Position numbers and translations under genes: made by a program. From positions 1-35,916 of the forward strand of contig VGWC01000022.1 of assembly GCA_016873775.1 (NCBI GenBank): a stretch of DNA of 35,916 nucleotides. Direction: 5' to 3'. Below the pieces are notes generated by a model. It made no database searches. It was not told where the DNA came from and saw only the letters and a program-made list of their open reading frames with translations. Origin of the DNA: Ignavibacteria bacterium (lineage in GTDB: Bacteria > Bacteroidota > Ignavibacteria > UBA10030 > F1-140-MAGs086). Shown piece by piece: positions 1-35,684 of this stretch (within the stretch, counting starts at the first letter, position 1; each line of letters begins with the position of its first letter).

Positions 1-270
1 ACACAAAACTATCCAAATCCGTTTAATCCGACAACAACGATTAGATTTGAAATTCCCGTAGGGGCAATTCATGAATTGCCCTTACAAACAACGTTGAAAA
101 TCTACAACGTTCTCGGTCAAGAAGTTGCAACGCTTTTAAACAATGAAACGATGGAAGAAGGAATGCACGAAATTCAATTCGATGCGAGCGGATTATCAAG
201 CGGCATATATTTCTATCGCTTACACGCCGGAACATTCTTGGAAACAAAGAAAATGATACTCGTGAAGTAG
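1..270 (+). CDS. C-terminal fragment of a T9SS-secreted protein (type A sorting domain)
   Basis: The frame is open from base 1 and ends at TAG 268-270, so only the last 89 codons of a longer gene are present. The fragment begins TQNYPNPFNPTTTIRFEIP, runs through LKIYNVLGQEVATLL and ends GIYFYRLHAGTFLETKKMILVK. This is the classic Por-secretion (T9SS type A) C-terminal sorting domain, which directs a protein across the outer membrane and is removed or anchored at the cell surface. The cargo domain lies outside the window, so its function cannot be told. Between FEIP and LQTTLKIYN there is an extra segment, VGAIHELP, encoded by a near-perfect palindrome (58-85) that looks like an in-frame repeat insertion. 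A hairpin terminator follows at 299-317. The family call is secure; the gene's role is unknown. Confidence 0.9.
   Translation, partial: TQNYPNPFNPTTTIRFEIPVGAIHELPLQTTLKIYNVLGQEVATLLNNETMEEGMHEIQFDASGLSSGIYFYRLHAGTFLETKKMILVK
58..85. repeat. 28-bp near-perfect palindrome inside the T9SS coding sequence
   Basis: Bases 62-81 (GGGCAATTCATGAATTGCCC) are a perfect 20-bp palindrome. Three outer pairs (58-60 with 83-85) extend it, with one mismatch at 61/82. It is read in frame as VGAIHELPL. Because it is palindromic, the opposite strand also encodes AIHELPL. It sits exactly where an ordinary sorting domain passes from the NPFNP strand to the LKIYNVLG strand, so it looks like a dispersed palindromic element tolerated in a loop. 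The insertion is an inference from comparison with the normal domain pattern. Confidence 0.75.
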
Positions 271-298
271 CGTGAAATTTCGTTTCAGTGCAAAAAAG

Positions 299-317
299 AA
301 ACCTTCGAGGTTTTTTT
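299..317 (+). terminator. Intrinsic terminator after the T9SS gene
   Basis: AAACCT (299-304), loop TCG, AGGTTT (308-313), followed by a run of T to 317. It lies 29 bases after the T9SS stop codon. Its presence argues against starting the next gene at the upstream in-frame ATG (272). Confidence 0.7.
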
Positions 318-403
318 CTGTACGTTTTTTTTTCAAGGGTAAAATTTCTAACTTCATCCCGCTTTTAAAATTTTTTCACTCTAATGAAGAAAAATATATT
401 CTT

Positions 404-1771: not shown

Positions 1772-1773
1772 TT

Positions 1774-7525: not shown

Positions 7526-8944
7526 TTATCCTTTCTTTTGTATCGTTGTTCGTTCAACTATCGTTGCACTCATTTCTGCTTCTGCAACAAGATTTCCATC
7601 AACAATTGCTTTCCCTTTCATAACACATATTTTACTCCTTCGATTGATAATTTCCATTTCTAAAATCAATTGGTCGCCAGGGACAACGGGACGACGGAAT
7701 TTCACATTGTTCAACGAAGTAAAATACATCAGTTTTCCATCCGGATTATCAACGCCGTTCAGCATTAATATTCCTCCCGTTTGCGCCATCGCTTCAATAA
7801 TTAATACTCCCGGCATTACCGGTTGTCCTGGAAAATGTCCCTGAAAAAATTCTTCGTTGCACGTAACGTTTTTTATACCGACAATTTTTTCATCCAACTG
7901 AAAATCAATGATTTTATCTACGAGTAAAAACGGATACCGATGCGGAAGGATGCGTTGAATTGCGTTATTATCAAATACAATTCCTCGCGTTGTATCAAAC
8001 TGATATTTCTTGACAAGTTTATTTTGTACATATAATTTCCGAATCTTTTTTGCAAACTCGATATTGCTGGCATGTCCCGGACGAGCAGCAAGTATTTGTG
8101 CTTTCATCGGTGCACCGATTAACGCTAAATCTCCAACTAAATCAAGTAATTTGTGACGCGCGGGTTCATTAGTGAATAAAAGTTCTTTTCCGTTCAATGT
8201 TCCTGTGTTCCCCAACAAAATGGATTCCCGTATTCCTAATTTTTCTGAAATACGCTCCACTTCTTCTTTGGATAGCGGAGGGTCAACAACAACAATGGCA
8301 TTATCCAAATTTCCGCCGCGAATCAATCCCGCATCGTGCAACGCTTCCACTTCGTGCAAAAAACAAAACGTACGCGCAGGAGAAAACTCTGTTACAAACT
8401 CTTTCTCCATATCGAACATTCCGGTATGCTGACTCCCTAATACAGGACTGTTGTAATCAATCACCACCGTAACACGATAATCATCAGTCGGCAATGCTAC
8501 AATATCAACGCCTTTTTGTTCATTCACGTAACGAACAGTTTGGTCAATAATCAAATAATCTTTCAGAGCCGATTGTTTTTCAATTCCGGCTTCAAGAATT
8601 TTTTCCACAAAAACTTTGGAACTTCCGTCACAAATCGGCGGCTCGATATTATCCAGTTCAATGATAATATTATCAATTTGCAATCCTACAAACGCCGCAA
8701 GCACGTGTTCTACGGTATGAACTTTTGCTTGTCCAAGTTGAATCGTTGTCCCACGCGCAACTTCAACGACATAATCTACAAGCGCGGGAATTTCCGGAAA
8801 ACCTTCCAAATCTACGCGCCGAAAACGTATGCCCGTGTTTTCTAACGACGGTAACATTTTCATTGTTGTATCTACACCTGTATGTAATCCCACGCCGGAA
8901 ATTATTACAGGTTGCTTGATTGTTTGTTGGTGCGACTGAAGCAT
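7526..8944 (-). CDS. lpxC/fabZ: Bifunctional LpxC-FabZ: UDP-3-O-acyl-GlcNAc deacetylase / 3-hydroxyacyl-ACP dehydratase
   Basis: This is a single 472-residue fusion. Residues 1 to about 310 are LpxC, the zinc deacetylase that commits the cell to lipid A synthesis. It has GVGLHTG near the start, the zinc motif HTVEHVLAAF, and ARHKLLDLVGDLALIG carrying the second His and Asp. Residues about 325-472 are FabZ, the fatty-acid-cycle dehydratase. It has ILPHRYPFLLVDKII, then QGHFPGQPVMPGVLIIEAMAQ with the catalytic His and Glu. The fusion is known from Bacteroidota and relatives and supports the lineage call. It joins the branch point between lipid A and phospholipid synthesis in one polypeptide. 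It lies between lpxD and lpxA. Confidence 0.96.
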   Translation of the reverse strand: MLQSHQQTIKQPVIISGVGLHTGVDTTMKMLPSLENTGIRFRRVDLEGFPEIPALVDYVVEVARGTTIQLGQAKVHTVEHVLAAFVGLQIDNIIIELDNIEPPICDGSSKVFVEKILEAGIEKQSALKDYLIIDQTVRYVNEQKGVDIVALPTDDYRVTVVIDYNSPVLGSQHTGMFDMEKEFVTEFSPARTFCFLHEVEALHDAGLIRGGNLDNAIVVVDPPLSKEEVERISEKLGIRESILLGNTGTLNGKELLFTNEPARHKLLDLVGDLALIGAPMKAQILAARPGHASNIEFAKKIRKLYVQNKLVKKYQFDTTRGIVFDNNAIQRILPHRYPFLLVDKIIDFQLDEKIVGIKNVTCNEEFFQGHFPGQPVMPGVLIIEAMAQTGGILMLNGVDNPDGKLMYFTSLNNVKFRRPVVPGDQLILEMEIINRRSKICVMKGKAIVDGNLVAEAEMSATIVERTTIQKKG

Positions 8945-11247: not shown

Positions 11248-13641
11248 TTAAAATCCTCTTCCGAACACAAAATGAAATTTCCATTTTTCCGGTTTTCCAT
11301 CGGGAATTCCTTTCGGTCCATACGCATCATCAAATCCATAGCCATAATCGAATCCTAACATTCCAATCGGAAGAACTAAAATGCGCGCACCAAAACCTGC
11401 AGAACGTTTCAAACCAAACACATCAACTTCCGACGAATTTGCCCACACATTTCCGCCTTCCGCAAACAAGAGAAAATACAACGGCATAGGATTAATTGAT
11501 AATGCAAAGCGAAGTTCAATAGAATTTTTGATATAAATTTTTCCTCCTGTGTTCTGTCCTTTACTTGTTTGTGGTCCAACTGTTCTATCGTCATATCCGC
11601 GCAACTGCGTCGTGGAAAAATAGCCGATACCTGTTCCTCCCATAAAAAATAATTCAATCGGCGGAACCAACGACGCATTTTCTCCCGGCACGATATATCC
11701 CGAGTGCATTGCAGAGTACAGGACAACCCGATTCGTACTAAACAACGGAAGATATTTTTCTCCTGAAAAAATCCATTTCTGAAAATAGGTTTTCTCGGAT
11801 TGAGGAAATGTTCGCACAACACGAGAAAGTTCGTACGAAAGTGAAAAGTTTGAACCTACTGATGGGAATATTGGACTATCTGTACTGTTTCTGGAAAATG
11901 CTTGCGAAAGTGAAATCTGTGTGGTTTTTCCTTCGTTGTAATAATTTGCACCGTTAAGAACATTATTCTGTTGAAACCGAACATTCCAATCGCCACGGAA
12001 AAAATCATCAGGCCATTTTAATCGTCTTCCAATTCTTCCGCTTACTCCAGTTTGTTGTAAATCAAAAACATACTGCTGTCGTGTATCGAAAATACTGAAT
12101 CCCACTAACGTTGGCGTATCGTATAACCACGGTTCAGTAAAATTCAACGAAAAAGTACGAAACCGATTTCCTTGACCAAATTGCCATTCAAAGTTCAATA
12201 TTTGTCCCGCACCTCCTGCAAGCGGGTCGCGAAGGGAAAAATTATTTATCGTAAAACCAATTGCTCCCGTTGCGCCAAATGCTTCACTATAACCTACTGA
12301 AGCATTCACTTCGTCACTGGATTTTTCTTCAACTTCGAAAAATAAATTCACTGTTTTATTATTCACAAGACGATAATCAGGACGCAATTTTTCCGGGTTG
12401 AAATAATTCAGTTGTTGAAGTTGTCGCAAACTACGGATGATTGCTGCGCGGTTAAACTTTTCTCCCGGAAGTGTATACAACTCACGGCGAATAACATTAT
12501 CCTGCGTTTTTGTATTGCCAACAATGGAAACATCGCCGTTCATAAATTGATTTCTCTCTCCGACGCGAATCGTAATATCTATCGAATCTGCACTAATCTT
12601 TTTTTCTTCCGGTTCAGCAGAAAACATCAAGTATCCGTTATCAAGATACAACGAAGCAACGTCCGTTTGGTCTTGATTGCTTCGTAAATTTTGTTCAAAC
12701 TTTTCTACGTTATAAATATCGCCGTTATTGAAACCGAGACGCGTATTCAATTCCTCATTCGTATAAACAGTATTCCCTTCCCACGAAATGTTTCGCACTA
12801 TGTACTGCGGTCCTTCATAAACATTGAGAAATATTTCCATCGTTTCATCTTCGCGTAAGTACGTTATCGAATCCGAAAGAAACTGAAAATCTTTAAATCC
12901 ATTCTTTCGGTAGAACGCAATCAGTTTCTGTTTATCTTCTTCAAATTTCTTTTTATCGAATTTCGCGCTCTGCCAGAACTTCCACCAAACGCTTTCATTC
13001 GTTTCAGAAAATTCCGATTTCAATTCATCGTCTTCATATTGTTCGTTTCCACTGAAATCAATTTTCTCAACACTTACTTCCGCTCCTTCGTCAATTGTCA
13101 ATTTCAACACTGCGCGTTTTCTTGCCAATGAATCACTCATCTCCACAGAAGACTGAATCTCGGTAAAATTGTACCCTTTCTCGGCGTATTCTTTTTTCAA
13201 CTTCTTGATTGCCTTCGAAATTTTTTGCGGCGAGAGCAATTCATTTTTCGAAAACTCAAGTTTTTTCTCAATATCTTCTTCGTTGAACTCATCGTTGCCA
13301 GTAATTTCCACACGTTCAAATCGAGGATATTCTTCAACAACAATAAGCAAATATATTCCATCGTTCACAATATTTTCCGAAAAAATTTGCACGTCGGAAA
13401 ACACATTCAGCGACCATAAACGCATTGCTGCTGTTCGTAACGCTTCGCCCGGAACGGAAATCGTATCGCCGATATTAAATCCAGAATTGCCAATGAGCGC
13501 CGAAGGTTCTGCTGTGTGCGTTCCTTCCACAGAAATTCCAAGTATAACGTATTGCTGCGGAGTTTGTTTTTGTGAAAACACAAACTCCGTACAGCAAAAC
13601 ATCACGAGCGATAATCTTAAAAGAAAAAAAGAAATTTTCAT
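11248..13641 (-). CDS. bamA: Outer membrane protein assembly factor BamA
   Basis: BamA is the Omp85 protein that inserts beta-barrel proteins into the outer membrane. The 797-residue protein has a signal peptide (MKISFFLLRLSLVMFCCTEFVFS). About five POTRA repeats follow over residues 30-430, recognisable from VEITGNDEFNEEDIEKKLEF, KIDFSGNEQYEDDELKSEF, NISWEGNTVYTNEELNTRL and VSIVGNTKTQDNVIRREL. The C-terminal half is a 16-strand barrel. The loop-6 motif appears as LRGYDDRTVGP, and the last residues KWKFHFVFGRGF end in the aromatic residue expected of outer-membrane barrels. The start overlaps the uppS stop by 4 bases. Confidence 0.96.
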   Translation of the reverse strand: MKISFFLLRLSLVMFCCTEFVFSQKQTPQQYVILGISVEGTHTAEPSALIGNSGFNIGDTISVPGEALRTAAMRLWSLNVFSDVQIFSENIVNDGIYLLIVVEEYPRFERVEITGNDEFNEEDIEKKLEFSKNELLSPQKISKAIKKLKKEYAEKGYNFTEIQSSVEMSDSLARKRAVLKLTIDEGAEVSVEKIDFSGNEQYEDDELKSEFSETNESVWWKFWQSAKFDKKKFEEDKQKLIAFYRKNGFKDFQFLSDSITYLREDETMEIFLNVYEGPQYIVRNISWEGNTVYTNEELNTRLGFNNGDIYNVEKFEQNLRSNQDQTDVASLYLDNGYLMFSAEPEEKKISADSIDITIRVGERNQFMNGDVSIVGNTKTQDNVIRRELYTLPGEKFNRAAIIRSLRQLQQLNYFNPEKLRPDYRLVNNKTVNLFFEVEEKSSDEVNASVGYSEAFGATGAIGFTINNFSLRDPLAGGAGQILNFEWQFGQGNRFRTFSLNFTEPWLYDTPTLVGFSIFDTRQQYVFDLQQTGVSGRIGRRLKWPDDFFRGDWNVRFQQNNVLNGANYYNEGKTTQISLSQAFSRNSTDSPIFPSVGSNFSLSYELSRVVRTFPQSEKTYFQKWIFSGEKYLPLFSTNRVVLYSAMHSGYIVPGENASLVPPIELFFMGGTGIGYFSTTQLRGYDDRTVGPQTSKGQNTGGKIYIKNSIELRFALSINPMPLYFLLFAEGGNVWANSSEVDVFGLKRSAGFGARILVLPIGMLGFDYGYGFDDAYGPKGIPDGKPEKWKFHFVFGRGF

Positions 13642-14999: not shown

Positions 15000-16616
15000 T
15001 TATTTTGCTTTTTTCTTCTCTGCTATCATATTCTCGATAAACTTAATTCCTTCTTGTGACTGTGTAATGGACTCCGTTAGTGATTTTCTCGCAAGTTCAG
15101 GGTTATGAAATCCATCGGAATTTTCTGCTGTCCACCATTCCCAAAGCGTATGAGATTGGTCGTGATACTTTCGCGAAAGAATTAACGCAGAATCCGTAAC
15201 ACCTATATCTTTTGCGCGTTGGTATGTATCAATAAACTGCCCAAGCCAAAATTCCGCTTTCCGCATTTTCCCGCGAATATAATTCTGCACAGCATCAATT
15301 TGATATTCTGCTTCCTTTTCTGTCCATTTATTATGGCAATTCAAACACGTCTCTTTCGTCATATAACGCGCACTTTTTTGTCCGTGCCACGTGTATGTTT
15401 TGTTTCCTTTTTTCACTTCTGGCATGTGACAATCTTTACATTCCACTCCCGCGCGTTCGTGTTTACTCATCCAAAATGTTTCCATTTCGGGATGTTGCAA
15501 TTTCGAAAGCGATGCTCCTGTAACTGAATGCTTGAAATCTTTGAACGAATACGATTCCATTTTTTTATTGTAATCCAAAACATTCACCCATGGAAAAATA
15601 TTTGTTCGCGAATCGTTATACTTAATTGCATTTCCTGTTTTTGGGTCGTGACCGGGATTGCAATTATATTCCACGTGACATTGGGCGCAACGAAGATTAG
15701 AATCTTTTTTATTTAATATTCCAATAGCGCGAAAATCACGGAACATTATTTTTTGCATCGTTACTTGTTTGCTTTTTTCTTTATCATACGGATATGTTCC
15801 TTCGCCTCTGTCAACTACCGCTTCAATCAACGCATCACGAACGACACGCGGTTGTGTTCCGTGCGGGTCGTGGCAATGAATACAACCAACGGGATTTTTA
15901 ATATCACGAGCCATTGCAACCACTTTCGATGTTCTCGACCATTGCGCTTCCGGCGCTGCATCTCCTTTATATTTCCATTTTAATATCTGATCTGTAGATT
16001 TACAACTCAAGCACGTCGGATTTGCCGCTGTTGCGCTTTGTGAAAGAAATACTTTTTGCGTATCCGAAGATGGCTCAGCATCGGTAATTAAATCCCAAAC
16101 GTTTCCTGTTTTAGTAACATATTCCCAACCCTTCAATTGAAATCTTCCTCCATACGCGCGGTCTATAATGTAATGGTCGGTTACCATAAATGCATGACTT
16201 CGCGGTTCATTATGTTCTTTCGTAAAACCATGCGGCATCATCAGTTTATCAAATGTTGGCGAGCGGCTCGTCGTGGATGCTTTCTCCAATCGCGCTTTCG
16301 ATTGCATATTCACGTGCATAAACGATTCGTATTGATCTTTATGACAACTTCCGCATTTACTCAACGATACATCCGTTATCGGTTTTTTCGATGCGTCTTC
16401 CAAATGTTGCGGCAAATCCGAATGACACGCAACGCAATTCATTTTTTCGTGCTTGCTTCCTTTCCGCAAGTCGGCAACTTCGGTATGACATTCGTAACAT
16501 TGTTTTGCATCCACTGCTTTTTCTTTTTGCGGCAACGAAGTAATATTTGTTACAAACATTGGCGTAAGGGATGCTACGATAATAATAAAAAGGGAAAGAA
16601 TTAGTATTCGTTTCAT
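15000..16616 (-). CDS. Octaheme cytochrome c nitrite reductase (ONR/TvNiR type, ammonia-forming)
   Basis: This 538-residue secreted protein with an N-terminal signal peptide or anchor (residues 1-25) has eight heme c sites. Seven are CXXCH: 40-44, 61-65, 88-92, 245-249, 310-314, 393-397 and 424-428. The fourth is CLSCK at 202-206, the lysine-ligated catalytic heme of NrfA-type nitrite reductases. PRSHAFMVTD (catalytic Arg139), CAQCHVEY (catalytic Tyr317) and the His386 of SKHERAGVECKDCHMP match the NrfA active site. The sequence EYNC places a Cys two residues after the catalytic Tyr, as in the Tyr-Cys crosslink of Thioalkalivibrio octaheme reductase. Three extra N-terminal hemes separate it from pentaheme NrfA, and the CXXCK heme separates it from hydroxylamine oxidoreductase. 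The predicted reaction is six-electron reduction of nitrite to ammonium. It is downstream of actF with no nrfH in view. Confidence 0.92.
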   Translation of the reverse strand: MKRILILSLFIIIVASLTPMFVTNITSLPQKEKAVDAKQCYECHTEVADLRKGSKHEKMNCVACHSDLPQHLEDASKKPITDVSLSKCGSCHKDQYESFMHVNMQSKARLEKASTTSRSPTFDKLMMPHGFTKEHNEPRSHAFMVTDHYIIDRAYGGRFQLKGWEYVTKTGNVWDLITDAEPSSDTQKVFLSQSATAANPTCLSCKSTDQILKWKYKGDAAPEAQWSRTSKVVAMARDIKNPVGCIHCHDPHGTQPRVVRDALIEAVVDRGEGTYPYDKEKSKQVTMQKIMFRDFRAIGILNKKDSNLRCAQCHVEYNCNPGHDPKTGNAIKYNDSRTNIFPWVNVLDYNKKMESYSFKDFKHSVTGASLSKLQHPEMETFWMSKHERAGVECKDCHMPEVKKGNKTYTWHGQKSARYMTKETCLNCHNKWTEKEAEYQIDAVQNYIRGKMRKAEFWLGQFIDTYQRAKDIGVTDSALILSRKYHDQSHTLWEWWTAENSDGFHNPELARKSLTESITQSQEGIKFIENMIAEKKKAK

Positions 16617-24197: not shown

Positions 24198-25541
24198 TCA
24201 ACTTGGACGTTCGCATCCTTTGCGATTGTAATACCACCAATTAACATACGTTGCATACAACAGAAATACGATGAGACCATAATAAAAATTCGTCGCATTC
24301 CCCGTTGCGCCGATGATTAATCCGATGAGCGAAGAAAATATAAACGGACCGTACGCTGCGATAGCCGCAGTCCATCCGATTACTCCCGATGCTTGTCTCT
24401 GATTTTGTGCAAAGATAATTGGATATTGACGAAACGTTGCGGCGTTACCAATTCCTGCAAAGAAAAACATTCCGAGCATAATGGTAATAAACATCGGAAA
24501 TTGTTCGATACTTGTTGGCGCAACAAGTCCCATCGAAATCATCAATACTGAACCAATTATTAAGCCAATTCCGGTAATTGTTGTTAAAATTCCACCGCCG
24601 GTTTTATCGGAAACAAATCCAAAAATAACACGACTTGCAGAACCAATCAATGGACCATAAAAAGCATATTTCAACGGCTCAGGCGCATCGGGAAAATTTC
24701 CGTACAATGATTTTATCATCAACGGAAATGCGGCAGAAAGTCCGGAAAACGTTCCGAAAGTCATCATATACGTAACCGTGCAGTACCACGTATGTTTATC
24801 TTTGAAAATATCCAATTGCTCTTTGAATGATGCAGTAATTGGAACGCTTCGCAACATCCACCAACAAACTATCGTCATTACGATGAGAACCGGAATGTAC
24901 CAGAACGCCGCACTTTGTAAAAATATTTCCGAAGTCCCGAGAATTTCTTTGGTTTTTGGATTTATTTTTGTAAAAATCTGTGATGCTCCGTATGTCCCAA
25001 CTCCTAACATAATCGGCGTCATAAATTGCGCCAAACTTACTCCAAAGTTTCCAATTCCCGCTTGTATTCCGAGCGCAGTTCCTTTTAATCGTTTCGGGAA
25101 AAACAAATTTGTGCTTGGCATATATGATGAAAAATCTCCTCCGCCAAAACCTGCAGAAAATGCTAACACTAAAAAAATCCAAAACGGGGTTTCGGGATTC
25201 ATCACTGCTAATCCCAATCCGACACATGGAATTAGTTTAATGAACGTTGCTAATGTAATGACATTTCTCGTTCCATAAATGGGAAGTAAAAATGTATGAA
25301 TGATACGCAACGTACCTCCCGCAAGACCTGGCATTGCCGCGAGCCAAAAGAGTTCTTGGGTTGTGAACTTAAAACCAATTCCAGGAAGTTTGACAACAAT
25401 TGCGCTTACCATAAACCACGTTGCAAAGGAGAACGTGAGTGAAATTGTCGTAACCCAAAGAATTCGCCATGCAATTTTCTTTCCAGTGCTTTCCCAAAAA
25501 TCAGAATTTTCCGGCTCCCATCTTTCTAACCATTTACTCAT
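24198..25541 (-). CDS. narK: Nitrate/nitrite transporter NarK (NarK2-like)
   Basis: This 447-residue major facilitator protein has 12 predicted membrane helices. The N-terminus SKWLERWEPENSDFWESTGKKIAWRILW matches the NarK start of Escherichia coli closely. NarK landmarks follow: VKLPGIGFKFTTQELFWLAAMPGLAGGTLRI, FSAGFGGGDFSSYMPSTNLFFPKRLKGTALGIQAGIGNFGVSLAQ with the nitrate signature, and GFVSDKTGGG. It probably exchanges nitrate for nitrite across the inner membrane, supplying cytoplasmic NarG. ATG 25541 was chosen because an ATG at 25589 would overlap the upstream gene and adds a non-homologous leader. It is the second of two NarK genes in tandem. Confidence 0.92.
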   Translation of the reverse strand: MSKWLERWEPENSDFWESTGKKIAWRILWVTTISLTFSFATWFMVSAIVVKLPGIGFKFTTQELFWLAAMPGLAGGTLRIIHTFLLPIYGTRNVITLATFIKLIPCVGLGLAVMNPETPFWIFLVLAFSAGFGGGDFSSYMPSTNLFFPKRLKGTALGIQAGIGNFGVSLAQFMTPIMLGVGTYGASQIFTKINPKTKEILGTSEIFLQSAAFWYIPVLIVMTIVCWWMLRSVPITASFKEQLDIFKDKHTWYCTVTYMMTFGTFSGLSAAFPLMIKSLYGNFPDAPEPLKYAFYGPLIGSASRVIFGFVSDKTGGGILTTITGIGLIIGSVLMISMGLVAPTSIEQFPMFITIMLGMFFFAGIGNAATFRQYPIIFAQNQRQASGVIGWTAAIAAYGPFIFSSLIGLIIGATGNATNFYYGLIVFLLYATYVNWWYYNRKGCERPS

Positions 25542-25561
25542 AAATATTTTTCTTTCTTTTA

Positions 25562-27262
25562 TTATCGTACAATACGAAGTATTGGACAAGTAGCGTGTTT
25601 AAATACATCATACGTTCTACTTCCCATCAACAAACTTCCCATCGGAGAAGAATGATGACTTGCTAGAACAATCAAATCGGCAGAACGGTCATCGGCGGAA
25701 GCAATTATTTCGCTTGAAACATTTCCCTGACGAATTTCCATATCAATATCGGCGATACCGAGACCTTGAAACCGTTTTACTTCTTTATCGAGGAGTTGTT
25801 TTCCTTCCTTAATCCAATTGTCCCGAATTTCCTGCCATTCTGTTGAATTCGATGTTAACGAACCCGAATCGTGAAAACGATGTTCGACATATAACAATAC
25901 GAGTTTTGCGTTCGATGCTTTGCAAAGTTTGGAAACTGTGTCTGCTGTTTTATCTGCAAGTTGAGAATTTCCGACGGGATAAATTATTGTTTTAATGTAT
26001 TCCGGTTTGATAATTTCTTGTTCTCCGTTTGCAGGAACCGATTCAATATGATGACGAATTCGCGCTTTCCCACCTTCACTTACCCACGTTCGCGTCCAAC
26101 GGTGTTGTGCAACGCGCATTACATGAAATGCGACAAGTGCAATTAAAGAAAATACCGCAAACCCCCAAAAGAATGTTCCGGTAAATTCTTTCGAAAATCC
26201 CATCGCATTAGGAATAATTGCTCCTCCGAGTGCGCCGATTTCACCAATCATACTTCCGGCAACTGCTGTATTCGTAGGCCAACGGTGCGGAACAAGTTGG
26301 AATAATGCACCGTTTCCAGCACCAAGCGCCGCAAAACATATCATAAAAAATATCGTGGTTACGATGACATTCGTTTGCAATGCAGTGAGCAACATCATAG
26401 CAATAATTCCTACAAACACAACGGAGAGTGTTGTAATTCCTCCCCATCTGTCGGAAAAATGTCCGCCAAGAATTCGTATTCCGCTTCCCATGATTGCCGC
26501 AAACATTGTTAATTGTCCCGCCTCAACTTTCGTTACGCCAAATTGGTCGTGATAATATGTAGGAAGAAAATTTGAGAGTCCGATAAATCCGCCAAACGTT
26601 ATGATATAAATAAGATTGAAAACCCATCCATCTTTTTCCCACAAACATTTGATATGGTCTTTTATTGTTTCGTGTTGTTTTCTATCCGGCGGTTCTTTCG
26701 CCATAAATATCATAACAAGAATCGGAACAATCATAAACAGCGCACCGAATCCATATACTGTTTTCCACCCGTACGCTGCTGCAAGCGGTGGAGCGAGAAG
26801 CACTGCTAATACAGTTCCGCTATTTCCCGCACCAGCAATTCCCATTGCTAATCCTTTATATTTTGGCGGAAACCATCCCGAACCTAACGATAATGCAACT
26901 CCAAAACTTGCTCCTGCAATTCCTAAAAGAACGCCCATTGCAAGTACGTCGTTGTATGTTTCCACCATTACGTATCCATAGAGCATTGCAAAAAAGATAA
27001 GCGTCATTTCAACTAATGCCGCATTTTTTCTTCCGATGTACTGCGAAAGAATACCTAAAGGAAATCGCATTAATGCTCCTGCTAATATCGGAACAGAAAT
27101 CATAAACCCTTTTTGCGAAGGAGTGAGTTGAAACGTCTCGCTGATAAACGGCGCCATAGCACCATTTAAAACCCAAATTGCGAAACAAAAATCGAAGTAA
27201 AGAAACGCAGAAAACAGCGTCGGCCAATGACCTGATTTCAGAAATCGTTTTATGTTTTCCAT
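25562..27262 (-). CDS. Nitrate transporter (NarK1-like MFS) fused to a universal stress protein domain
   Basis: This 566-residue fusion has a major facilitator transporter with 12 helices at residues 1 to about 400. It has LGSGWFPPKYKGLAMGIAGAGNSGTVLAVLLAPPLA, a nitrate-porter signature, and a second GNGALFQLVPHRWP motif. Residues about 417-566 are a UspA-type domain: YIKTIIYPVGNSQLADKTADT, then LVLLYVEH, ADLIVLASHHSSPMGSLLMGSRTYDVFKHATCPILRI. The first glycines of the usual ATP-binding GXXGX9G(S/T) motif are replaced (ASHHSSPMGSLLMGS), so nucleotide binding is uncertain. The Usp domain would face the cytoplasm and may modulate transport. It is 14 bases downstream of narI and 20 bases upstream of the second narK. 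Confidence 0.92.
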   Translation of the reverse strand: MENIKRFLKSGHWPTLFSAFLYFDFCFAIWVLNGAMAPFISETFQLTPSQKGFMISVPILAGALMRFPLGILSQYIGRKNAALVEMTLIFFAMLYGYVMVETYNDVLAMGVLLGIAGASFGVALSLGSGWFPPKYKGLAMGIAGAGNSGTVLAVLLAPPLAAAYGWKTVYGFGALFMIVPILVMIFMAKEPPDRKQHETIKDHIKCLWEKDGWVFNLIYIITFGGFIGLSNFLPTYYHDQFGVTKVEAGQLTMFAAIMGSGIRILGGHFSDRWGGITTLSVVFVGIIAMMLLTALQTNVIVTTIFFMICFAALGAGNGALFQLVPHRWPTNTAVAGSMIGEIGALGGAIIPNAMGFSKEFTGTFFWGFAVFSLIALVAFHVMRVAQHRWTRTWVSEGGKARIRHHIESVPANGEQEIIKPEYIKTIIYPVGNSQLADKTADTVSKLCKASNAKLVLLYVEHRFHDSGSLTSNSTEWQEIRDNWIKEGKQLLDKEVKRFQGLGIADIDMEIRQGNVSSEIIASADDRSADLIVLASHHSSPMGSLLMGSRTYDVFKHATCPILRIVR

Positions 27263-27276
27263 AAATTATTCTTGTA

Positions 27277-27984
27277 TTATATGTTATGTTTTAATTTCCA
27301 TTCGGCATACCATCGCACAACTTGCGGCTTTCTCCATAAGTACGGATTCGGAATAACAAGAGCGTGCACAAGTCGCGTGAATGGGAAAAATGCTATCATC
27401 GTATATGCGCCGACAATATGAAACTTTACCATAAACGGCATTGCCGTGATATATGAAATATTTGGATTCAGCGTTAGTATTGACCATAAATATGGAGATG
27501 CCGATGCTGCAAACCACGCAGAACCCCATTGATGAAATATCGCTGTGTATAATCCTGAAAACACTTGTATCAAAAACATCACAAGAATTATCCAATCGGC
27601 AACACTTGTTACCATTTTCACTTTCGGCTCCTTCAATCTTCGCGCAATAACACTCACTAATCCAACGATGGTAAGTAATCCAAAAATAAATGCGGCAATT
27701 TCGAGTATGTATAATCGAAGCGGAATACTGTTCCACACAATTACTTTTTCCGGCAATAAGAATGCAATAAGATGTGCAAAAAATAACGTGATGATTCCAT
27801 AATGAAACGGAACAACGCCCCAAAAATGATGCTGGTTTTCAAGAAACTGCGACGACAAACTGGAAAACGAAAAACTCTGCATCACATATCTTCGAATAGA
27901 AACGAGTAAAAAAATCGCCAATGCGAGATACGGTAAAACAATAAATAATATTTCGTCAATGAAAAGCGGATTAGGATTTGCCAT
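27277..27984 (-). CDS. narI: Respiratory nitrate reductase gamma subunit (cytochrome b)
   Basis: This 235-residue protein has five membrane helices. NarI anchors NarGH at the inner membrane, oxidises quinol and passes electrons through two b hemes. The four heme ligands are visible: His61 and His71 in PFHYGIITLFFAHLIAF, and His189 and His207 in KFHIVGAYTMIAFFPFTRLVHAL. The 10- and 18-residue spacings match E. coli NarI. It overlaps narJ by 14 bases. Its presence shows that NarGH is membrane-bound and quinol-driven. Confidence 0.95.
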   Translation of the reverse strand: MANPNPLFIDEILFIVLPYLALAIFLLVSIRRYVMQSFSFSSLSSQFLENQHHFWGVVPFHYGIITLFFAHLIAFLLPEKVIVWNSIPLRLYILEIAAFIFGLLTIVGLVSVIARRLKEPKVKMVTSVADWIILVMFLIQVFSGLYTAIFHQWGSAWFAASASPYLWSILTLNPNISYITAMPFMVKFHIVGAYTMIAFFPFTRLVHALVIPNPYLWRKPQVVRWYAEWKLKHNI

Positions 27985-28507
27985 AGATTGGTTCTCCGTT
28001 GATTTGTTGAAATGTTTGTTGTAAAAGTATTTTTAATGCGTTAAATAAATGTGCATACGGATTTTGTTCTTCTGAAAATCCCGCGCATATTTTTTCCAGC
28101 GATGGAAACACATACGAACAAACAAATTCCGTTGCTTCATCGTGTTCCATTTTTTCAATCAATAATAATACGTACGAAAGATGATCGGGAAGTTCAGTAG
28201 TTTCGGAAATATCGTACTCGCGAAGCAACCCCCGCATTGTAACAAGAAACGCACCTCGCTCGTATTGTTCGCCGTATAAATGCCATCCGATTTCCAGACT
28301 TGCAATCGGATTGATATCAAACGTTCTTGTATAAAGTTCTTCAAAATCTTCCGAAGAATATGTTTTTGTTGCTTCAACAAATTTTTGAAAAACATTCAAT
28401 GCGTTTTCATTTTCTTCTTCAAGAAAAAAACCACATTCCTCCATTCGTTTGCGATAATCAAACGAAGGATATGAGAGAAGCGGAACGAAACGTGCGATTG
28501 AAGACAT
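27971..28507 (-). CDS. narJ: Nitrate reductase molybdenum cofactor assembly chaperone NarJ
   Basis: This 178-residue, mostly helical protein is a TorD/NarJ-like chaperone. It binds apo-NarG, helps insert the cofactors and holds the complex until it reaches NarI. It starts MSSIARFVPLLSYPSFDYRKRMEEC and contains EELYTRTFDINPIASLEIGWHLYGEQYERGAFLVTM, a NarJ hallmark, then LPDHLSYVLLLIEKM. ATG 28507 has AGGAAG upstream and lies 7 bases after narH. The frame is open back to 28639 but that would run inside narH. It overlaps narI at its 3' end. Confidence 0.93.
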   Translation of the reverse strand: MSSIARFVPLLSYPSFDYRKRMEECGFFLEEENENALNVFQKFVEATKTYSSEDFEELYTRTFDINPIASLEIGWHLYGEQYERGAFLVTMRGLLREYDISETTELPDHLSYVLLLIEKMEHDEATEFVCSYVFPSLEKICAGFSEEQNPYAHLFNALKILLQQTFQQINGEPIYGKS

Positions 28508-28514
28508 ATTCTTC

Positions 28515-30005
28515 CTACAATCCTCGTTCCGGTCCTTCGACAAAACCAAAACCGGCAAGCGTACGATGTTCGTGTGGATCTTTGAGCATTTCAATTGCTT
28601 CTTCGCGGTGCATTGGCGGAATGACAAATCTGTCTTCAAACGTGCAAAGCGACGTAAGACGATAAATCATTTCTGCTTCTTCTTTCGAACATTCCGCTTC
28701 GGTAAGAATTTTTTCCGCCGTCTTCATATCAATATCGCCAACTGTCATTGCACGGCGATACATCCGAACTGCTTTTTGTTTTTTCAACGCATACACAATT
28801 TTTCCCTGATGTCCTGCACCAAAAAGATTTCCGAGAAATTGTAACGGTACGCGCGCTTGTTCAATATCGTGGAAAAAATCTTTCGAAATACTGCTTACCG
28901 TATCATCGTTTTTTTGCGCCATCACGGGAGACATCGGCGGAACATAAAACAACATCGGAAGTGTGCGAAATTCAATATGCGGAGGCAAAGCAATTTTCCA
29001 TTCTTTCACAAATTTATACACGGGAGATTGTTGCGCAGAATCAATTACCGATTCGTGAATACCGTTTTGCAATGCAGCGGCAATTACCGCAGGGTCATTG
29101 GGGTTTAATATCATTGCACGTTGCGCATCAATTAAATCTTCGTTCGAAGATTTGGCAACTTCCTCAATTTTATCAGCGTCGTACAACAACACACCGAGAT
29201 AGCGAATTCTTCCAACGCACGAATGAAAGCACGCAGGCGCTTGTCCCGTTTCCAAGCGCGGAAAACACAGAATACATTTTTCCGATTTTCCCGTTGACCA
29301 GTTGTAAAATGATTTTTTATACGGACACGCGGCAACACACGCACGCCACGCGCGGCAACGTTTTTGGTCTATCAATACAATCCCATCTTCGCCGCGTTTA
29401 TACAATGCTCCCGAAGGACACGCGGCAACACATCCGGGATTTAAACAATGATTGCAGATTCTCGGAAAATAAAAAAACACTAATCGCTCAATTGCAAAAA
29501 GTTGCTCGCGTTGTTCTTCGGATAATCCTTTCAAGTTCGGGTCATTTTCCGCATACACCGGAGAACCACTCAAATCATCATCCCAATTTGGTCCTGCTTC
29601 AACATTGATATATTCTCCAGTAACCAACGAAATCGGTCGAGCAGTTGGTTGGTCAGAACCTTCGGGGGCGTTGAACAATTCATCATATTTGTATGTCCAC
29701 GGCTCATAATAATCGTCCATACTTGGCATCGAAGGATTATGAAAAATATCAGTAATCGTTCGCGCTTTGTTCGTTGATTTCAAATGCAATTTATCATTCG
29801 TAACATCCCAACCGCCGCGGTACTTGCTTTGGTCTTCCCATTTGGTAGGAAATCCGGTTCCGGGTTTTGTTTCAACGTTGTTCCACCACATATATTCTGC
29901 GCCGCGTCTATCCGTCCAGATATTTTTGCACGCAATACTACATGTGTGGCAACCGATGCATTTATCGAGATGAAATACCATTGATATTTGTGAGCGAACA
30001 TTCAT
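28515..30005 (-). CDS. narH: Respiratory nitrate reductase beta subunit (Fe-S)
   Basis: This 496-residue iron-sulfur subunit passes electrons from NarI to NarG. It has four cysteine groups: CIGCHTCSIACKN near residue 16, ICNHCLNPGCVAACPSGALY, CRAWRACVAACPYKKSFYNW and CILCFPRLETGQAPACFHSC. The Trp in CRAWRAC replaces a cysteine and marks the [3Fe-4S] centre, as in E. coli NarH. The family-specific stretch EYMWWNNVETKPGTGFPTKWEDQ is present. There is no signal peptide, so the subunit is cytoplasmic. The 48-base gap to narG holds a 7-bp tandem tract. Confidence 0.96.
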   Translation of the reverse strand: MNVRSQISMVFHLDKCIGCHTCSIACKNIWTDRRGAEYMWWNNVETKPGTGFPTKWEDQSKYRGGWDVTNDKLHLKSTNKARTITDIFHNPSMPSMDDYYEPWTYKYDELFNAPEGSDQPTARPISLVTGEYINVEAGPNWDDDLSGSPVYAENDPNLKGLSEEQREQLFAIERLVFFYFPRICNHCLNPGCVAACPSGALYKRGEDGIVLIDQKRCRAWRACVAACPYKKSFYNWSTGKSEKCILCFPRLETGQAPACFHSCVGRIRYLGVLLYDADKIEEVAKSSNEDLIDAQRAMILNPNDPAVIAAALQNGIHESVIDSAQQSPVYKFVKEWKIALPPHIEFRTLPMLFYVPPMSPVMAQKNDDTVSSISKDFFHDIEQARVPLQFLGNLFGAGHQGKIVYALKKQKAVRMYRRAMTVGDIDMKTAEKILTEAECSKEEAEMIYRLTSLCTFEDRFVIPPMHREEAIEMLKDPHEHRTLAGFGFVEGPERGL

Positions 30006-30053: not shown

Positions 30054-33000
30054 TTACCAAATCAATTCCGGAAGTTTTCGAACGAGAATATGTGTGTCTC
30101 TGTTACAACCGATTGGTCCCCAATAATTGAAATGAAACGTGAATTGTCCATACCCTCCAATCATCAGGTTTGGTTTTAATCGTGTGCGCGTTAAACTGTT
30201 ATGTCCTCCTGCGCGTTTATTGTTTCGCAACGGAGATTTCGGAACAGAATACGTGCGTTCAGGTGAATGATAGATAATGCAAATTCCACGAGGTATTCTT
30301 GCACTTACTGCGGCGCGAGTTACAACAACTCCATGGTCGTTATGCACTTCCACCCAATCATTATCATTTACCCCGATGTCTTCGGCATCTTTATCATTCA
30401 TCCAAAATGGCTCTACTCCGCGTGAAAGTGTTGTCATTCTTTGATTATCTCCATACGTTGAGTGAATGTGCCATTTCCCGTGTGGTGTTAAATAATTCAG
30501 CATTTTTGTTTTTCCAACTTCGATGCTGAACCGTAAATCAGCATATTGTGTCGGAAGCGGTTTCGGTTTATACGTTGGAAGATGTTCGCCGAAATGAATA
30601 TATCCGGGATGGTCAAGATAAAAATGTTGACGACCTGTAAGCGTTCTCCAAGGAACAAGCGCTTCGACGTTGTACGTGAACGGTGAATACGCACGCCCGT
30701 TTTCTGTTAATCCCGACCACATCGGACTATTGAGCAAACGCATCGGTTTTGATTGAAGTTCTTTGTAGTTCACTCGCATACCGCGATTTTTTTCTGCAAG
30801 TTGCACAAGCGGAAGACCAACTTTTTCTTCCATATTTTTATATGAACGATATGCAAGTTCACCGTTTGTAACAGTTGCAAGATGTAGAATCGTATTGGCT
30901 ACATTAACTCCATCTTTCAGCGAAGGGTATGTTTTTCCATCAAAAGAAACTGTTGGTTGAGTTATCAGCATTTCATCGTAGTAATCATCAATCGCATATT
31001 TTGTTCCGTGCGCTCCAAGTCCGTTTTGGCGAACGAGTGGACCAAAAGAAATGTATTGGTTATGAACATTTTTGTAATCGCGAACGACAACAGAAAAATT
31101 TGGCATTGTTTTTCCTGGAATTGCTTCCACTTCTCCTTTTATCCAATCTTGTATTTTCGGTTGTGCAATTTCTGCGGCAGAATCGTGAGCAAGCGGCGTT
31201 GCGACAAGTTCTTTGACGCTTTCAGGAAAATGTTTTTTTGCAAGTTCAGAAAATTTCTTTGCAATGGCTTTGAAAATATCCCAATCGCTTTTCGATTCCC
31301 AACACGGCGGAACTGCAGCAGAAAGCGGATGAATAAAACTATGCATATCCGTCGAATTCAAATCCGCTTTTTCATACCATGTCGCCGCTGGCAAAACGAT
31401 ATCAGAATACAATGCAGAAGTATCCATTCGAAAATTCAAATCCACAACCAAATCCATTTTCCCCTGAGGAGCAATTTCATGCCATACAACTTCTTTCACA
31501 GAATCTTTCGCCATATCCTGCGAAATTTTATTTGTATGCGTTCCCAAATAATGATGAAGAAAATACTCGTGTCCTTTTGCACTCGACATCAACGCATTCC
31601 CGCGCCAGATATAAAATACTCGTGGCCAATTTTCTGAAGCATCCGGGTCTTCAACAGAAAATTTGAGTTTTCTTGATTTTAATTGTTCAATGACATACTT
31701 CACAATTTCTTCGTTTGTTTTCGCCCCGTTTGCATCTGCTTCCTTTACCAGTTCGATAGTGTTTTTGTTAAACTGCGGATAAAATGGAAGCCATCCGTTG
31801 CGAACAGCTTTCACTTGTACATCCATTGTGTGTCCTTTTGCAAGTGAATCCGGTTTCTGATGTTGCGGAACTGTGTGATAATCGGTAAAATCTTTTTCAT
31901 ATCTCCATTGATCGGTATTCACATAATGCCAACTTGGAGCATTTTGTTGCCGTGAAGGCCCATACCAATCTTTTGCAAATGCTATCGCTCCCCACGGTTC
32001 TCCCGGCGCAAGTTTTTCTTGTCCAACATAATGCGCCAAACCACCACCGTTGACGCCAACGCAACCGCAAAACATTAATGCGTGAATTCCCGCACGATAC
32101 ATCAAGTTTGCGTGGTACCAGTGATTGATTCCTGCGCCGATAATTATTGTACATTTTCCGTTTGTGTACTCTGCTGTACTTCCCCATTCGCGAGCAAATT
32201 TTATCAAATCGCTTCTCCCAATTCCGGTATATTTTTCGCTCCACGCAGGCGTATACGCTTTAGTTTCGTCATCATAATTCTTGGGATAATCGCCTTTCAA
32301 ACCTCGATTTACTCCATATTGCGCCATCAGTAAATCATACACGGTTGCTACAGTAATTTGCTTCCCATCAGCAGTAGTAATGTTTTTCACCGGAACATCA
32401 CGATGAATATTTTTCCCTTCGCCAAAATCATCAAAGCGAACGGAAACAGTGCCATCGTTGCTTTCAAGAAATGTTAGCGCGGGATTGATTTCACTTCCGT
32501 CTTGACCATCTTTCAAGAGTAGATTCCATTTTCCTTTTTCTGTTCCCCAACGAAAACCGGAACTTCCCATCGGCATTTTTGCTTCATTGCTTTTTTCATC
32601 CCACATCAAAAATTTCCATTCACCGTTTTCAACGGAAGCATACTTTTGTAAGTTGCTTGCACGAAGCATTTGTCCGCTTTCGTACGCGTTTCCTTCTTTT
32701 GTTAATTCTACAAGATAGGGAGCGTCGGTGTATTTCTTCGTATAATCAATGAAATACGGAACGTTTCGCTGATGGTGATATTCCGAAAGCAAAACGTGAT
32801 TCACTGCCATCCACCACGCTCCATCTTGTCCTGCATTAACTGAAACCCAATGGTCAGCATATTTTGCAACCTGATTAAAGTCAGGAGAGAACACGTACAT
32901 TTTTGTTCCGTTATGTCGTGCCTCTGCGGCAAAATGAACATCGGGGGTGCGCGTCATATTTAAGTTTGCACCCATAACGGCAAGTAGTTTCGCATTATAC

Positions 33001-33698
33001 CAATCTGCAGATTCATTCACATCGGTTTGCTCTCCCCACGTTTCCGGCGATGCAGATGGAAGGTCGCAATACCAATCATAAAACGAAAGTGATAAACCGC
33101 CAAGTAATTGCATTAAACGCGCTCCCGCAGCATAACTTACCATTGACATTGCTGGGATTGGAGAAAACCCTGCAATTCTATCTGGTCCGTGCGATTTTAT
33201 CGTATGAATATTTGCCGCCGCCATAATTTCCAAAACTTCATCCCACGAAGCACGACGAAACCCTCCTTTTCCTCGAGCGCGCTGATACCGTTGACGCGAT
33301 TCAGGATTTGATACTAATGATTTCCACGCATCCACTGGGTCTTCATATTCGCGTTTTACTTTTCTCCATAAATCAAGTAATGCACCTCGGATGTACGGAT
33401 ATTTCACACGCAATGGACTGTAAAGATACCACGAAAACGAAATTCCTCGCTGACATCCGCGCGGTTCGTACGGCGGAAGCGTTTTTTCCAACATCGGATA
33501 ATCGAGACCCTGCATTTCCCACGTTACGATTCCATCTTTGACGTGAATCATCCACGTGCAACTTCCTGTACAGTTAACACCGTGTGTACTTCGCACGACT
33601 TTATCGTGTTGCCAACGATTACGGTAAAATTCTTCCCAACTGCGAAGTTTCGGGTCAACTTCATCTTTCACCCAAGGAATTAAACTTTTATTATTCAT
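30054..33698 (-). CDS. narG: Respiratory nitrate reductase alpha subunit (molybdopterin)
   Basis: This 1214-residue catalytic subunit reduces nitrate to nitrite at a bis-MGD molybdenum centre. [4Fe-4S] ligands are His39, Cys43, Cys47 and Cys82 ([19 protein letters not shown]). The molybdenum-ligating Asp is Asp212 in [20 protein letters not shown], the NarG pattern and not the Cys or Ser of periplasmic relatives. [24 protein letters not shown] follows the E. coli sequence closely. No twin-arginine signal is present ([16 protein letters not shown]), so the enzyme faces the cytoplasm. The start overlaps the cytochrome gene by 4 bases. A nitrite oxidoreductase role was considered, but narJ, narI and narK argue for nitrate reduction. 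Confidence 0.97.
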
Positions 33699-34564
33699 AC
33701 ATTCGTTAATTTATTTTCTTGAACTAAAATTTTTCGAACTGCGCGAAAACGATTATTCCAAAAGACATCGAACAAACCAAGTAATATCAGCGAACCACCT
33801 AATCCGATTAACAGAAAATTGAGTTGCGATGTAGATTTATCCTGGGGATTTCTTTCGAGCGTGCTTTGAAAGTACGCAACAAGCGAAAGAACTTCTTCCG
33901 GTTCGAGCGCGTGCGTTTTATACACGGATTGCATTGTCGGAGTTGCCGGAGCAGATAACCATGTTGAAAGCGTTTTTCTGCCTTCGTATCGTTCGAAAAC
34001 TGTTGTTAATTCCGGCCCTAATGTTCCCCCTCCAAATCCTCCTATGCCAAATGTTGTATGACAAGAAATACACGGCGGTCCTCCATTTGTTAATCTTGTA
34101 TATCCTAAAAAAATATTTCTGCCGTTTTCTTTATCCTTTGGAGTAAAAGGTCTGTCGCTGATTTGTATCCCCATAAACTGTGATTTTTCTAATTTCGATT
34201 CTGTTTCGATGAGGTCGAGAAGAGCTTCCGCTCTTGCTTTATTCATTCCTTGCACTAACGGCATTATAGCGCCTCGCGACTCTTTTTGCAATTCGAGAGC
34301 ATAAGTATCACCTGCATCGAGCATCCCTTTTGGGTCGAGTAAAAATTTTACTAACCACGCGCGGTCCTTTCGTTGCGAAACATTTTTTAAATCGGGACCT
34401 GTTAATCTGCCGCCTCCGATGGTATGACAACTGACACAATTTTGTTTGAAATAATCTGCGGATTCTTGCGAAATTCCATTCGTCTTGCACATTAGTATTG
34501 CAACGAATATTATTGCAATTTTTGGAAAAAATAATTTTCGGAAAATATCAATTGTTAGTTTCAT
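33695..34564 (-). CDS. Diheme cytochrome c with C-terminal membrane anchor (NarC-like)
   Basis: This 289-residue exported protein has a signal peptide (residues 8-32) and two class I heme sites, CVSCH at 43-47 and CISCH at 165-169. Candidate Met ligands are at 101 (GAIMPLV) and 211 (TPTMQSV). The two cytochrome domains repeat the pattern [11 protein letters not shown] and [13 protein letters not shown]-terminal helix at about 248-269 anchors it with the hemes in the periplasm. A diheme cytochrome before narGHJI is known in Thermus (narC), where it belongs to the nitrate-respiration operon. Here it might instead link alternative complex III with the octaheme reductase (inference). Both ends overlap neighbours by 4 bases. 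Confidence 0.88.
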
Positions 34565-35619
34565 ACTGCTGCTTTTTCTGATGAAAATTGTTGCGTTACT
34601 TCATATTCCATTTGTTTGAGCATGGTAAGTAATTCTGTCTTTTGATGACATACAGTGCCGGCGAGTTCTAAATTTCCAAATTCCAGTAACAATTTATCTT
34701 TTTCTTTTTCTGGCAAATTATTTTCTGCCATAACAAATAAGATATTGTCTTCTTTCGTAATATGATTTCGCAAGAGAGCAATAAAATTTTTTGCTGGAAT
34801 GGAAAATTGAGCGAAGTTTGCTGTTCCGTTGTTCCCCATTTTTCCTAATGCATCGAGCATTTCTCGCACATACGAACGACCTTCTTCGTGTTCGTACAGC
34901 ATTACGGCAAGAGGTCCCATCTCACGTGAAAAACCGTTGCGTTCCATTGCGGGAAACAGGAATTTTTCTTCTTTTCCGTGATGACACGAGTCTGCAAATA
35001 ATTGAATAAATTTCAACGCATTGTTGAAGTATTGAGTGGAAATATGTTCGCCTCGTTCTGAACGTCGGATAAATATTTCCAATACATTGAGCATTCGCTC
35101 GATTGCACGATGCTCTTCTTTGAGAATTTCTGTAGGAGTTTTCATATTGCGTGTTTGTTGGGCAAGGTTTTTTTCTTCAGAAATCAATTCCATAAAATTC
35201 CACTTGTCGCTCATTTCCTTATTCAGGTCTTCTATTGTTTTTGTTTTTAACATTTCCAGCAAAACGTGTTTTGCTTCTTTCCACATCGGATGCAATGCGC
35301 AGGGATGTTCGTCTCCGCAGTTGGGAAATCCTGCAACACATTCGTCAAGTATTCCTTTTCCATCAATCGCGTGAACAATATCCATTAAATAGATATGTGA
35401 AGGTTTTCTACCGAGTTCAAAACCGCCACTGAGTCCTTTTTGCGAATGAATAATACCATCGCGCCCTAATGTTTGCATTACTTTACTTAAAAAATGATGC
35501 GGAATATTCAGCGACGATGAAATATCACGCAAATGAACTGGGGAATTGCTTTTTTGGCGTGTTAAGTACAACACGGATTGAATTGCGTATTCGCAAGATT
35601 TACTAAAAATTGCTGGCAT
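34561..35619 (-). CDS. Rrf2-family Fe-S regulator fused to a YtfE/hemerythrin-like diiron domain
   Basis: This 352-residue protein has two domains. Residues 1-140 are an Rrf2 winged helix: FSKSCEYAIQSVLYLT, then LRDISSSLNIPHHFLSKVMQTLGRDGII and KGLSGGFELGRKPSHIYLMDIVHAIDG. Three cysteines at 94, 101 and 107 (CX6CX5C) resemble the Fe-S ligands of NsrR and IscR. Residues about 161-345 are a hemerythrin-like bundle with His170, His214 and Glu218, His244, His286 and Glu290. This H, HXXXE, H, HXXXE set and its spacing resemble the diiron site of YtfE (RIC). In enterobacteria NsrR, an NO sensor, controls ytfE, so the fusion joins two known partners. It is the first gene of the nar operon and probably regulates it. 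ATG 35619 has no nearby Shine-Dalgarno; the frame upstream has no other ATG. Confidence 0.9.
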   Translation of the reverse strand: MPAIFSKSCEYAIQSVLYLTRQKSNSPVHLRDISSSLNIPHHFLSKVMQTLGRDGIIHSQKGLSGGFELGRKPSHIYLMDIVHAIDGKGILDECVAGFPNCGDEHPCALHPMWKEAKHVLLEMLKTKTIEDLNKEMSDKWNFMELISEEKNLAQQTRNMKTPTEILKEEHRAIERMLNVLEIFIRRSERGEHISTQYFNNALKFIQLFADSCHHGKEEKFLFPAMERNGFSREMGPLAVMLYEHEEGRSYVREMLDALGKMGNNGTANFAQFSIPAKNFIALLRNHITKEDNILFVMAENNLPEKEKDKLLLEFGNLELAGTVCHQKTELLTMLKQMEYEVTQQFSSEKAAV

Positions 35620-35627
35620 CGAATGTA

Positions 35628-35684
35628 AAACGAATAAGACTTTAATCTCCTATTACATTTTGTATGCCAATGTCTTATTCGTTT
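35628..35684 (-). promoter_or_regulatory. Separated 13-bp inverted repeat upstream of the nar operon (operator candidate)
   Basis: AAACGAATAAGAC (35628-35640) and GTCTTATTCGTTT (35672-35684) are perfect inverted repeats separated by 31 bases, lying 9-65 bases before the first gene. On the - strand TTGCAA (35686-35681) and TACAAA lie 18 bases apart and could be a weak promoter, which would put the distal arm in the promoter and the proximal arm after the start of transcription. The arrangement suits binding of a dimeric regulator to two half-sites, or an RNA hairpin in the leader. Confidence 0.6.

Follow-up and report, generated by a model that had tools for sequence, protein, structure and literature searches.

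The locus considered here raises the question of whether one protein can combine an Fe-S regulator with a diiron effector at the head of a nitrate respiration operon. In a contig of an Ignavibacteria bacterium (VGWC01000022.1; the window below is the whole analyzed stretch of 35,916 nucleotides), one reading frame of 352 amino acids, counted from its ATG, joins an Rrf2 domain to a hemerythrin-like HHE domain (Table 1). Such a frame could represent a conserved architecture, a recent merger of two genes, or an error in the sequence.

Two predicted metal-binding domains in one frame

Both domains score far above the Pfam cut-offs (Rrf2 half, 111.8 bits with PF02082, cut-off 30; HHE half, 78.4 bits with PF01814, cut-off 25.3), so that neither match can be ascribed to chance. 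The initial annotation, which described a complete Rrf2 winged helix and a complete hemerythrin-like ligand set in a single frame, is confirmed on this point, including the residue numbers of the putative ligands (Cys94, Cys101, and Cys107 in the first domain; His170, His214, Glu218, His244, His286, and Glu290 in the second). Structure prediction, which had been proposed as a check on the chain, yielded an AlphaFold2 model with high confidence for both domains (mean pLDDT 90, pTM 0.61) and a flexible joint between them: residues 150-157 are disordered or of low confidence, and there is no confident interface between the domains.

Apart from the Pfam match, the Rrf2 half exceeds the cut-off of the rrf2_super model (116.2 bits; cut-off 73.3), is modeled by AlphaFold with pLDDT mostly above 90, and has its best PDB fold matches, in Foldseek, to RsrR, CymR, IscR, and NsrR. 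All equivalog cut-offs are missed, among them those of the NCBIfam models for NsrR (38.3 bits vs 182) and IscR (65.7 bits vs 207.55), and the IscR, RirA, and SUF-regulator models outscore NsrR. Four residues, Cys94, Cys101, Cys107, and His110, are invariant among the 22 aligned Rrf2 homologs. His110 aligns with His107 of IscR, and the Cys3His1 set of that protein (C92, C98, C104, H107) is matched, with the first cysteine loop being one residue longer than in IscR (x6 vs x5). His107 is a cluster ligand in IscR; the ligands of the [4Fe-4S] cluster of NsrR are three cysteines and Asp8 of the other monomer (PMC5411485). The place of Asp8 is taken, by eye, by Glu10, which is not conserved in three of the homologs (L031, L034, and L061), and His110 is retained in homologs that have no acidic residue at this position. 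Because the histidine is invariant and the acidic residue is not, a Cys3His cluster is the better prediction, and the fourth ligand is probably His110, as in IscR, rather than an NsrR-type carboxylate. Thus, from its sequence, the Rrf2 half appears to be nearer to IscR than to NsrR and, by the curated cut-offs, is neither, which weakens the NsrR part of the earlier designation "NsrR/IscR-like."

In the HHE half, the full set of predicted diiron ligands is present and is invariant in 36 of 36 homologs. The spacing of these ligands (44/4/26/42/4) is indeed, as had been claimed, close to that in YtfE (45/4/27/44/4), where the ligands are H84, H129, E133, H160, H204, and E208 (PMC9052748). When modeled alone, the domain reaches a pLDDT of 94. 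In sequence profile comparison, YtfE is the nearest solved protein (E about 1e-12), and in structural comparison, the model matches PF0695 and NMB1532 best, with YtfE not among the best 50 matches. The YtfE/RIC equivalog models are missed (TIGR03652, 20.9 vs 204.7; NF008221, 31.2 vs 254), and a Pfam search of the fused chain did not find the ScdA_N domain with its cysteine pair. Hence "YtfE-like" is apt for the ligand spacing and the sequence profile but not for the domain composition or the nearest structures. By eye, a related HHE domain shares a frame with a second HHE-like domain at L035:7545-8678, and another one shares a frame with a segment resembling the ScdA_N/DUF1858 type at L053:4096-4968.

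Table 1. Features of the fused frame, its upstream region, and the downstream operon (window coordinates)
Feature	Coordinates	Strand	Basis
Second, inverted half-site AAACGAATAAGAC	35672..35684	-	13-bp perfect inverted repeat with 35628-35640; window only
TGGCAT-N5-ATG element, sigma-54-like -24/-12 geometry	35656..35669	-	Conserved in upstream regions
Conserved half-site AAAGTCTTATTCGTTT, candidate operator	35628..35643	-	RGTCTD in upstream regions
Fused rrf2-hhe frame	34561..35619	-	352 codons open from ATG
Rrf2 domain, residues 6-134	35218..35604	-	Pfam PF02082, E=3.3e-32
Predicted Fe-S ligand motif C94-x6-C101-x5-C107-x2-H110	35290..35340	-	Invariant residues in homologs
Linker, residues 135-158, tail of ancestral rrf2 gene	35146..35217	-	Tail-to-ATG comparison with congener G001
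A7 run in linker, likely insertion place	35168..35174	-	With A6, Rrf2 frame ends on TGA of ATGA
Met159, ancestral hhe start codon, ATGA kept	35143..35145	-	Aligned with free-standing hhe starts
Hemerythrin-like HHE domain, residues 161-297	34729..35139	-	Pfam PF01814, E=8.6e-22
NarC-like cytochrome c, two CxxCH, ATGA overlap with fused gene	33695..34564	-	
narG	30054..33698	-	TIGR01580, 1512.9 bits
narH	28515..30005	-	TIGR01660
narJ (ORF start too far upstream, overlapping narH)	27971..28639	-	Lies between narH and narI; homologous to the gene at this place in G001
narI	27277..27984	-	TIGR00351, PF02665
NarK-type transporter with C-terminal universal-stress-protein domain	25562..27262	-	Profile match
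Second NarK-type transporter	24198..25589	-	Profile match

A junction one nucleotide away from two genes

In the only congener compared (G001), rrf2 and hhe are separate genes of the same operon, with the stop and start codons overlapping as ATGA; the two genes are separate also in another genome of the same order (G055). The fused frame retains the traces of this arrangement. Met159 aligns with the start codons of hhe in L004, L005, L008, L031, and other loci, and the distance from the codon of Lys139, in the tail of the Rrf2 portion, to this ATG is 60 nt in the window vs 59 nt in G001. Accordingly, the stretch from the last conserved Rrf2 codon to the ATG is longer by exactly one nucleotide, which is all that parts the fused from the split state; were the A7 run in the linker one A shorter, the Rrf2 frame would end as it does in G001. 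Overlaps of the same 4-nt ATGA type occur at the hhe/narC and narC/narG junctions of the window operon. Most of the window genes lack a Shine-Dalgarno sequence, so the test for such a sequence at Met159 carries no information.

Two other origins of the frame were considered and rejected. A chimera of unrelated genes produced by assembly is ruled out because the gene order from rrf2 to the transporters is identical in G001. Ribosomal -1 frameshifting at A_AAA_AAC would not give the two-gene product, the -1 frame having no stop near the ATGA.

The domain search across genomes that the initial annotation had proposed did not reveal a conserved architecture: the fusion was detected only in the window genome, and its nearest relatives encode two proteins. 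No second Rrf2-HHE fusion was found in 98 genomes of the order, in 396 genomes of phylum members, or among the 62 other loci obtained by scanning 84,980 species genomes (a scan that reaches close relatives only), and in a plasmid search, no place covered 80% of the fused protein. The single-chain layout is private to one genome and one nucleotide deep, and thus either arose recently or, with lower probability, reflects an error in the sequence.

An error would mean that the A7 run contains a sequencing or assembly fault of one nucleotide, or represents a minority variant, and masks an organism that makes two proteins from ATGA-overlapping genes. We consider this rather unlikely, even though the privacy of the fusion among the 98 genomes, the precise two-gene arrangement of the congener with the ATGA retained in the window, the similar overlaps at the neighboring junctions, and the return to two genes upon removal of one A all agree with it, because other parts of the same genome and the linker itself point the other way. 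A codon model run over 456 kb of this genome (20 sample stretches) gave 130 direct frame switches; the two dozen that looked most suspicious proved to be ordinary gene ends when read, and no frameshift damage was recognized among the junctions examined. Long frames of the sampled sequence contain 437 runs of 7 nt or more, which implies an error rate of less than about 1% per run, a rough value given that some of the long frames are antisense and subtle cases escape the scan. Among the 28 runs of at least 7 nt in coding frames of the window, 27 lie in frames without any sign of disruption. Codon use in the eight codons from A7 to the ATG favors the fused frame, with a likelihood ratio, calibrated on known genes, of about 3.7. 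Together, the absence of frameshift damage and the codon use favor a real, recent fusion, albeit not decisively.

A different in-frame continuation was noticed in L009 (G042:C174, positions 205-2292, minus strand), where the frame of an HHE homolog continues into a porin-like protein. A hydrophobic, signal-peptide-like segment would sit in the middle of this chain, which is either an odd fusion or the result of a lost stop codon; senseless in-frame mergers, therefore, also occur in such assemblies.

The explanation that we prefer, although its chances are only about even, is that the frame arose by a recent in-frame merger of an overlapping gene pair heading the nar operon, one gene for an Fe-S regulator of the Rrf2 family and the other for a diiron HHE protein. 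This explanation is weakened by the occurrence of the fusion in one genome only and by its dependence on a single nucleotide close to a homopolymer. The senseless merger in G042 and the failure to find a PF22085-type NorB or Hcp in the window genome also count against it.

The gene pair, the nar operon, and the control region

The position of the fused gene at the head of a nitrate respiration operon, as originally proposed, is borne out by the genes downstream: cytochrome c, narG, narH, narJ, narI, and two narK-type transporters (narC-GHJI-K-K), the first transporter with a UspF-type match at residues 424-563. Genes resembling those of alternative complex III come after the operon. A NarC-like diheme cytochrome c precedes narG in the window as well as in G001, G007, and G009, and the layout of the window operon matches narCGHJIKT of Thermus. 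Mesophiles have been described as having no NarC in their nar operons; the role of this protein in Thermus is described in PMC7694296. The window further encodes an NrfA-like cytochrome (15000-16616; Cytochrom_C552, E=1.8e-56) that is below the curated cut-offs of ammonia-forming nitrite reductases. Neither a NorB of the PF22085 type nor Hcp was found in the window genome, which leaves room for the HHE protein in NO handling.

A second cluster in the same genome (L116:9992-18384, on contig C1 of G000) contains three more Rrf2 genes, one of which (11435-11887) encodes a protein 50% identical to the Rrf2 half in the window, along with a YtfE-like HHE gene, hemN, molybdenum-cofactor-like genes, and multiheme cytochromes. 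Also in the window, the 472-amino-acid frame 7526-8944 reads, by eye, like an LpxC-FabZ fusion, a layout known from Bacteroidota.

Adjacent rrf2 and hhe genes are present in G001, G055, L031, L034, and L061. In two other lineages (L061:8001-11432 and L034:554-4717), rrf2, hhe, and a gene for nitric oxide reductase of the NorB type, including its cytochrome c-like domain, stand in a row, in what is probably an NO-response operon. In G003 (L121), genes for an Rrf2 and an HHE protein are located within 2 kb of an NrfA-type cytochrome; at L031, no respiratory genes are present among the neighbors examined. What the pair loci other than L031 have in common is nitrogen-oxide respiration. The gene pair is a stronger result than the fusion and seems to be a genuine module for the control of nitrogen-oxide metabolism; that it recurs in several lineages beside genes of the nar, nor, and nrf groups points to an apparently uncharacterized coupling of nitrogen-oxide sensing to a diiron protein.

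These neighborhoods bear on the nature of the signal. It is conceivable, if somewhat doubtful, that what the regulator senses is not NO but, in the manner of IscR or RirA, Fe-S supply, iron, or oxygen, and that the HHE domain handles oxygen or iron and so cues nitrate respiration. The order of the model scores, the invariant histidine at the place of IscR His107, and the lack of PF22085-type NorB and Hcp would all suit such a regulator, but no Rrf2 equivalog cut-off is reached, and in the loci examined, the pair lies beside norB, nrfA, or nar rather than isc or suf. NO as the signal is, in turn, suggested by the gene neighborhood.

Upstream of rrf2, the motif RGTCTD occurs within 50 nt of the start (at about 17-25 nt) in 9 of 11 regions, compared with a mean of 0.40 and a maximum of 4 upon resampling. 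About 50 nt before the start, TGGCAY-N5-WTG is found in seven of the 11 regions (never more than one in 3000 resamplings) and is replaced by TTGACA in three others. The element has the -24/-12 spacing of sigma-54 promoters, but the C typical of their -12 element is missing; RpoN is encoded in the window genome. The palindrome scores of the operator are mostly not significant for individual sequences; only the common half-site is. The extended box RGTCTWA is conserved in the regions of the window, G001, G055, G009, G007, G044, G059, G031, L027, and G058, and several of the rrf2 genes with this box head nar operons. The candidate box is placed where a bound repressor would block initiation, an arrangement that would fit autoregulation.

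Possible mode of action and comparison with known systems

Under the preferred explanation, a recent merger of an overlapping pair, the dimeric Rrf2 half would carry an Fe-S cluster on Cys94, Cys101, Cys107, and probably His110, and would bind the RGTCTWA box overlapping the promoter of its own operon, thereby controlling nar expression. Modification of the cluster by NO, by nitrite-derived species, or by a redox change would turn the operon on. The HHE half, tethered C-terminally by the flexible linker, may use its diiron site to bind NO or nitrite or to turn them over, as YtfE and NorA do, and would thus set the dose of NO that reaches the regulator and protect Fe-S centers; in the relatives, two coupled proteins would do the work of the fused chain. 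There are precedents in other systems: YtfE reduces nitrite to NO, which NsrR detects (PMC9052748), NorA is a diiron protein that binds NO (PMC9045102), and in Thermus, nsrR adjoins a gene for a ScdA-domain protein that has been suggested to restore the NsrR cluster (PMC5748679).

A more ambitious proposal is that the fusion is both real and functional, a DNA-binding Fe-S switch tuned by a diiron site for NO or nitrite, with slippage on A7 possibly adding the separate proteins. Such slippage could yield both fused and separate products since loss of one A restores the TGA/ATG overlap, but we regard the proposal as a whole as improbable. We see a similarly slim chance for integration of sensor and effector, an idea that goes back to the initial annotation, in which the diiron site acts on the Fe-S cluster within one chain or dimer, either by altering its state or by feeding it iron. 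Both metal-ligand sets are complete in one frame, the modeled fold and its flexible linker would permit such contact, and hemerythrin domains fused to other outputs are known as sensors (PMC9388753); however, the relatives manage with separate proteins, the predicted linker is disordered, the model has no confident interface between the domains (pTM 0.61), and the event is too recent for selection to show. If real, the natural fusion would fix the partners at 1:1, so that tuning of Rrf2 Fe-S sensors by HHE proteins would become directly testable, and it would show a gene merger one nucleotide past the two-gene state.

The initial annotation knew of no characterized protein of this layout, and our literature search likewise found no paper describing an Rrf2-hemerythrin chain. 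The finding amounts to a gene pair of a familiar type that has undergone a single fusion. The outputs known for hemerythrin-domain sensors are chemotaxis or enzyme domains, whereas here the output would be a DNA-binding Rrf2 domain; the ligand sets differ as well, His5GluAsp in hemerythrin vs the YtfE-type His4Glu2 set in the window chain. The diiron domain in one chain with a signaling output is a feature that the window frame shares with the multidomain oxygen/redox sensors already known (PMC9388753). With IscR and NsrR, the Rrf2 half has in common the winged helix, the three spaced cysteines, and the dimerization helix, but neither of these regulators has a C-terminal HHE domain. With E. 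coli YtfE, RIC, and R. eutropha NorA, the HHE half shares the His4Glu2 set and its spacing, but it lacks the ScdA_N cysteine pair and scores far under the cut-offs of the respective models.

The nearest known precedent is nsrRST of Thermus thermophilus, which encodes the Rrf2 regulator NsrR, the ScdA-domain protein NsrS, and the cupin NsrT within nitrogen-oxide respiration clusters (PMC5748679, PMC7694296). There, too, the gene for an Rrf2 Fe-S regulator adjoins one for a putative Fe-S-repair protein, and narCGHJIKT, like the window operon, starts with the cytochrome c NarC and ends with two transporters. The denitrification cluster of T. scotoductus also contains an Rrf2 gene and HHE genes (PMC3235269). 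Unlike the window pair, which is found at the head of nar, nsrRST is located at the nir/nor genes; its NsrS contains a ScdA domain, not HHE, and its genes are separate.
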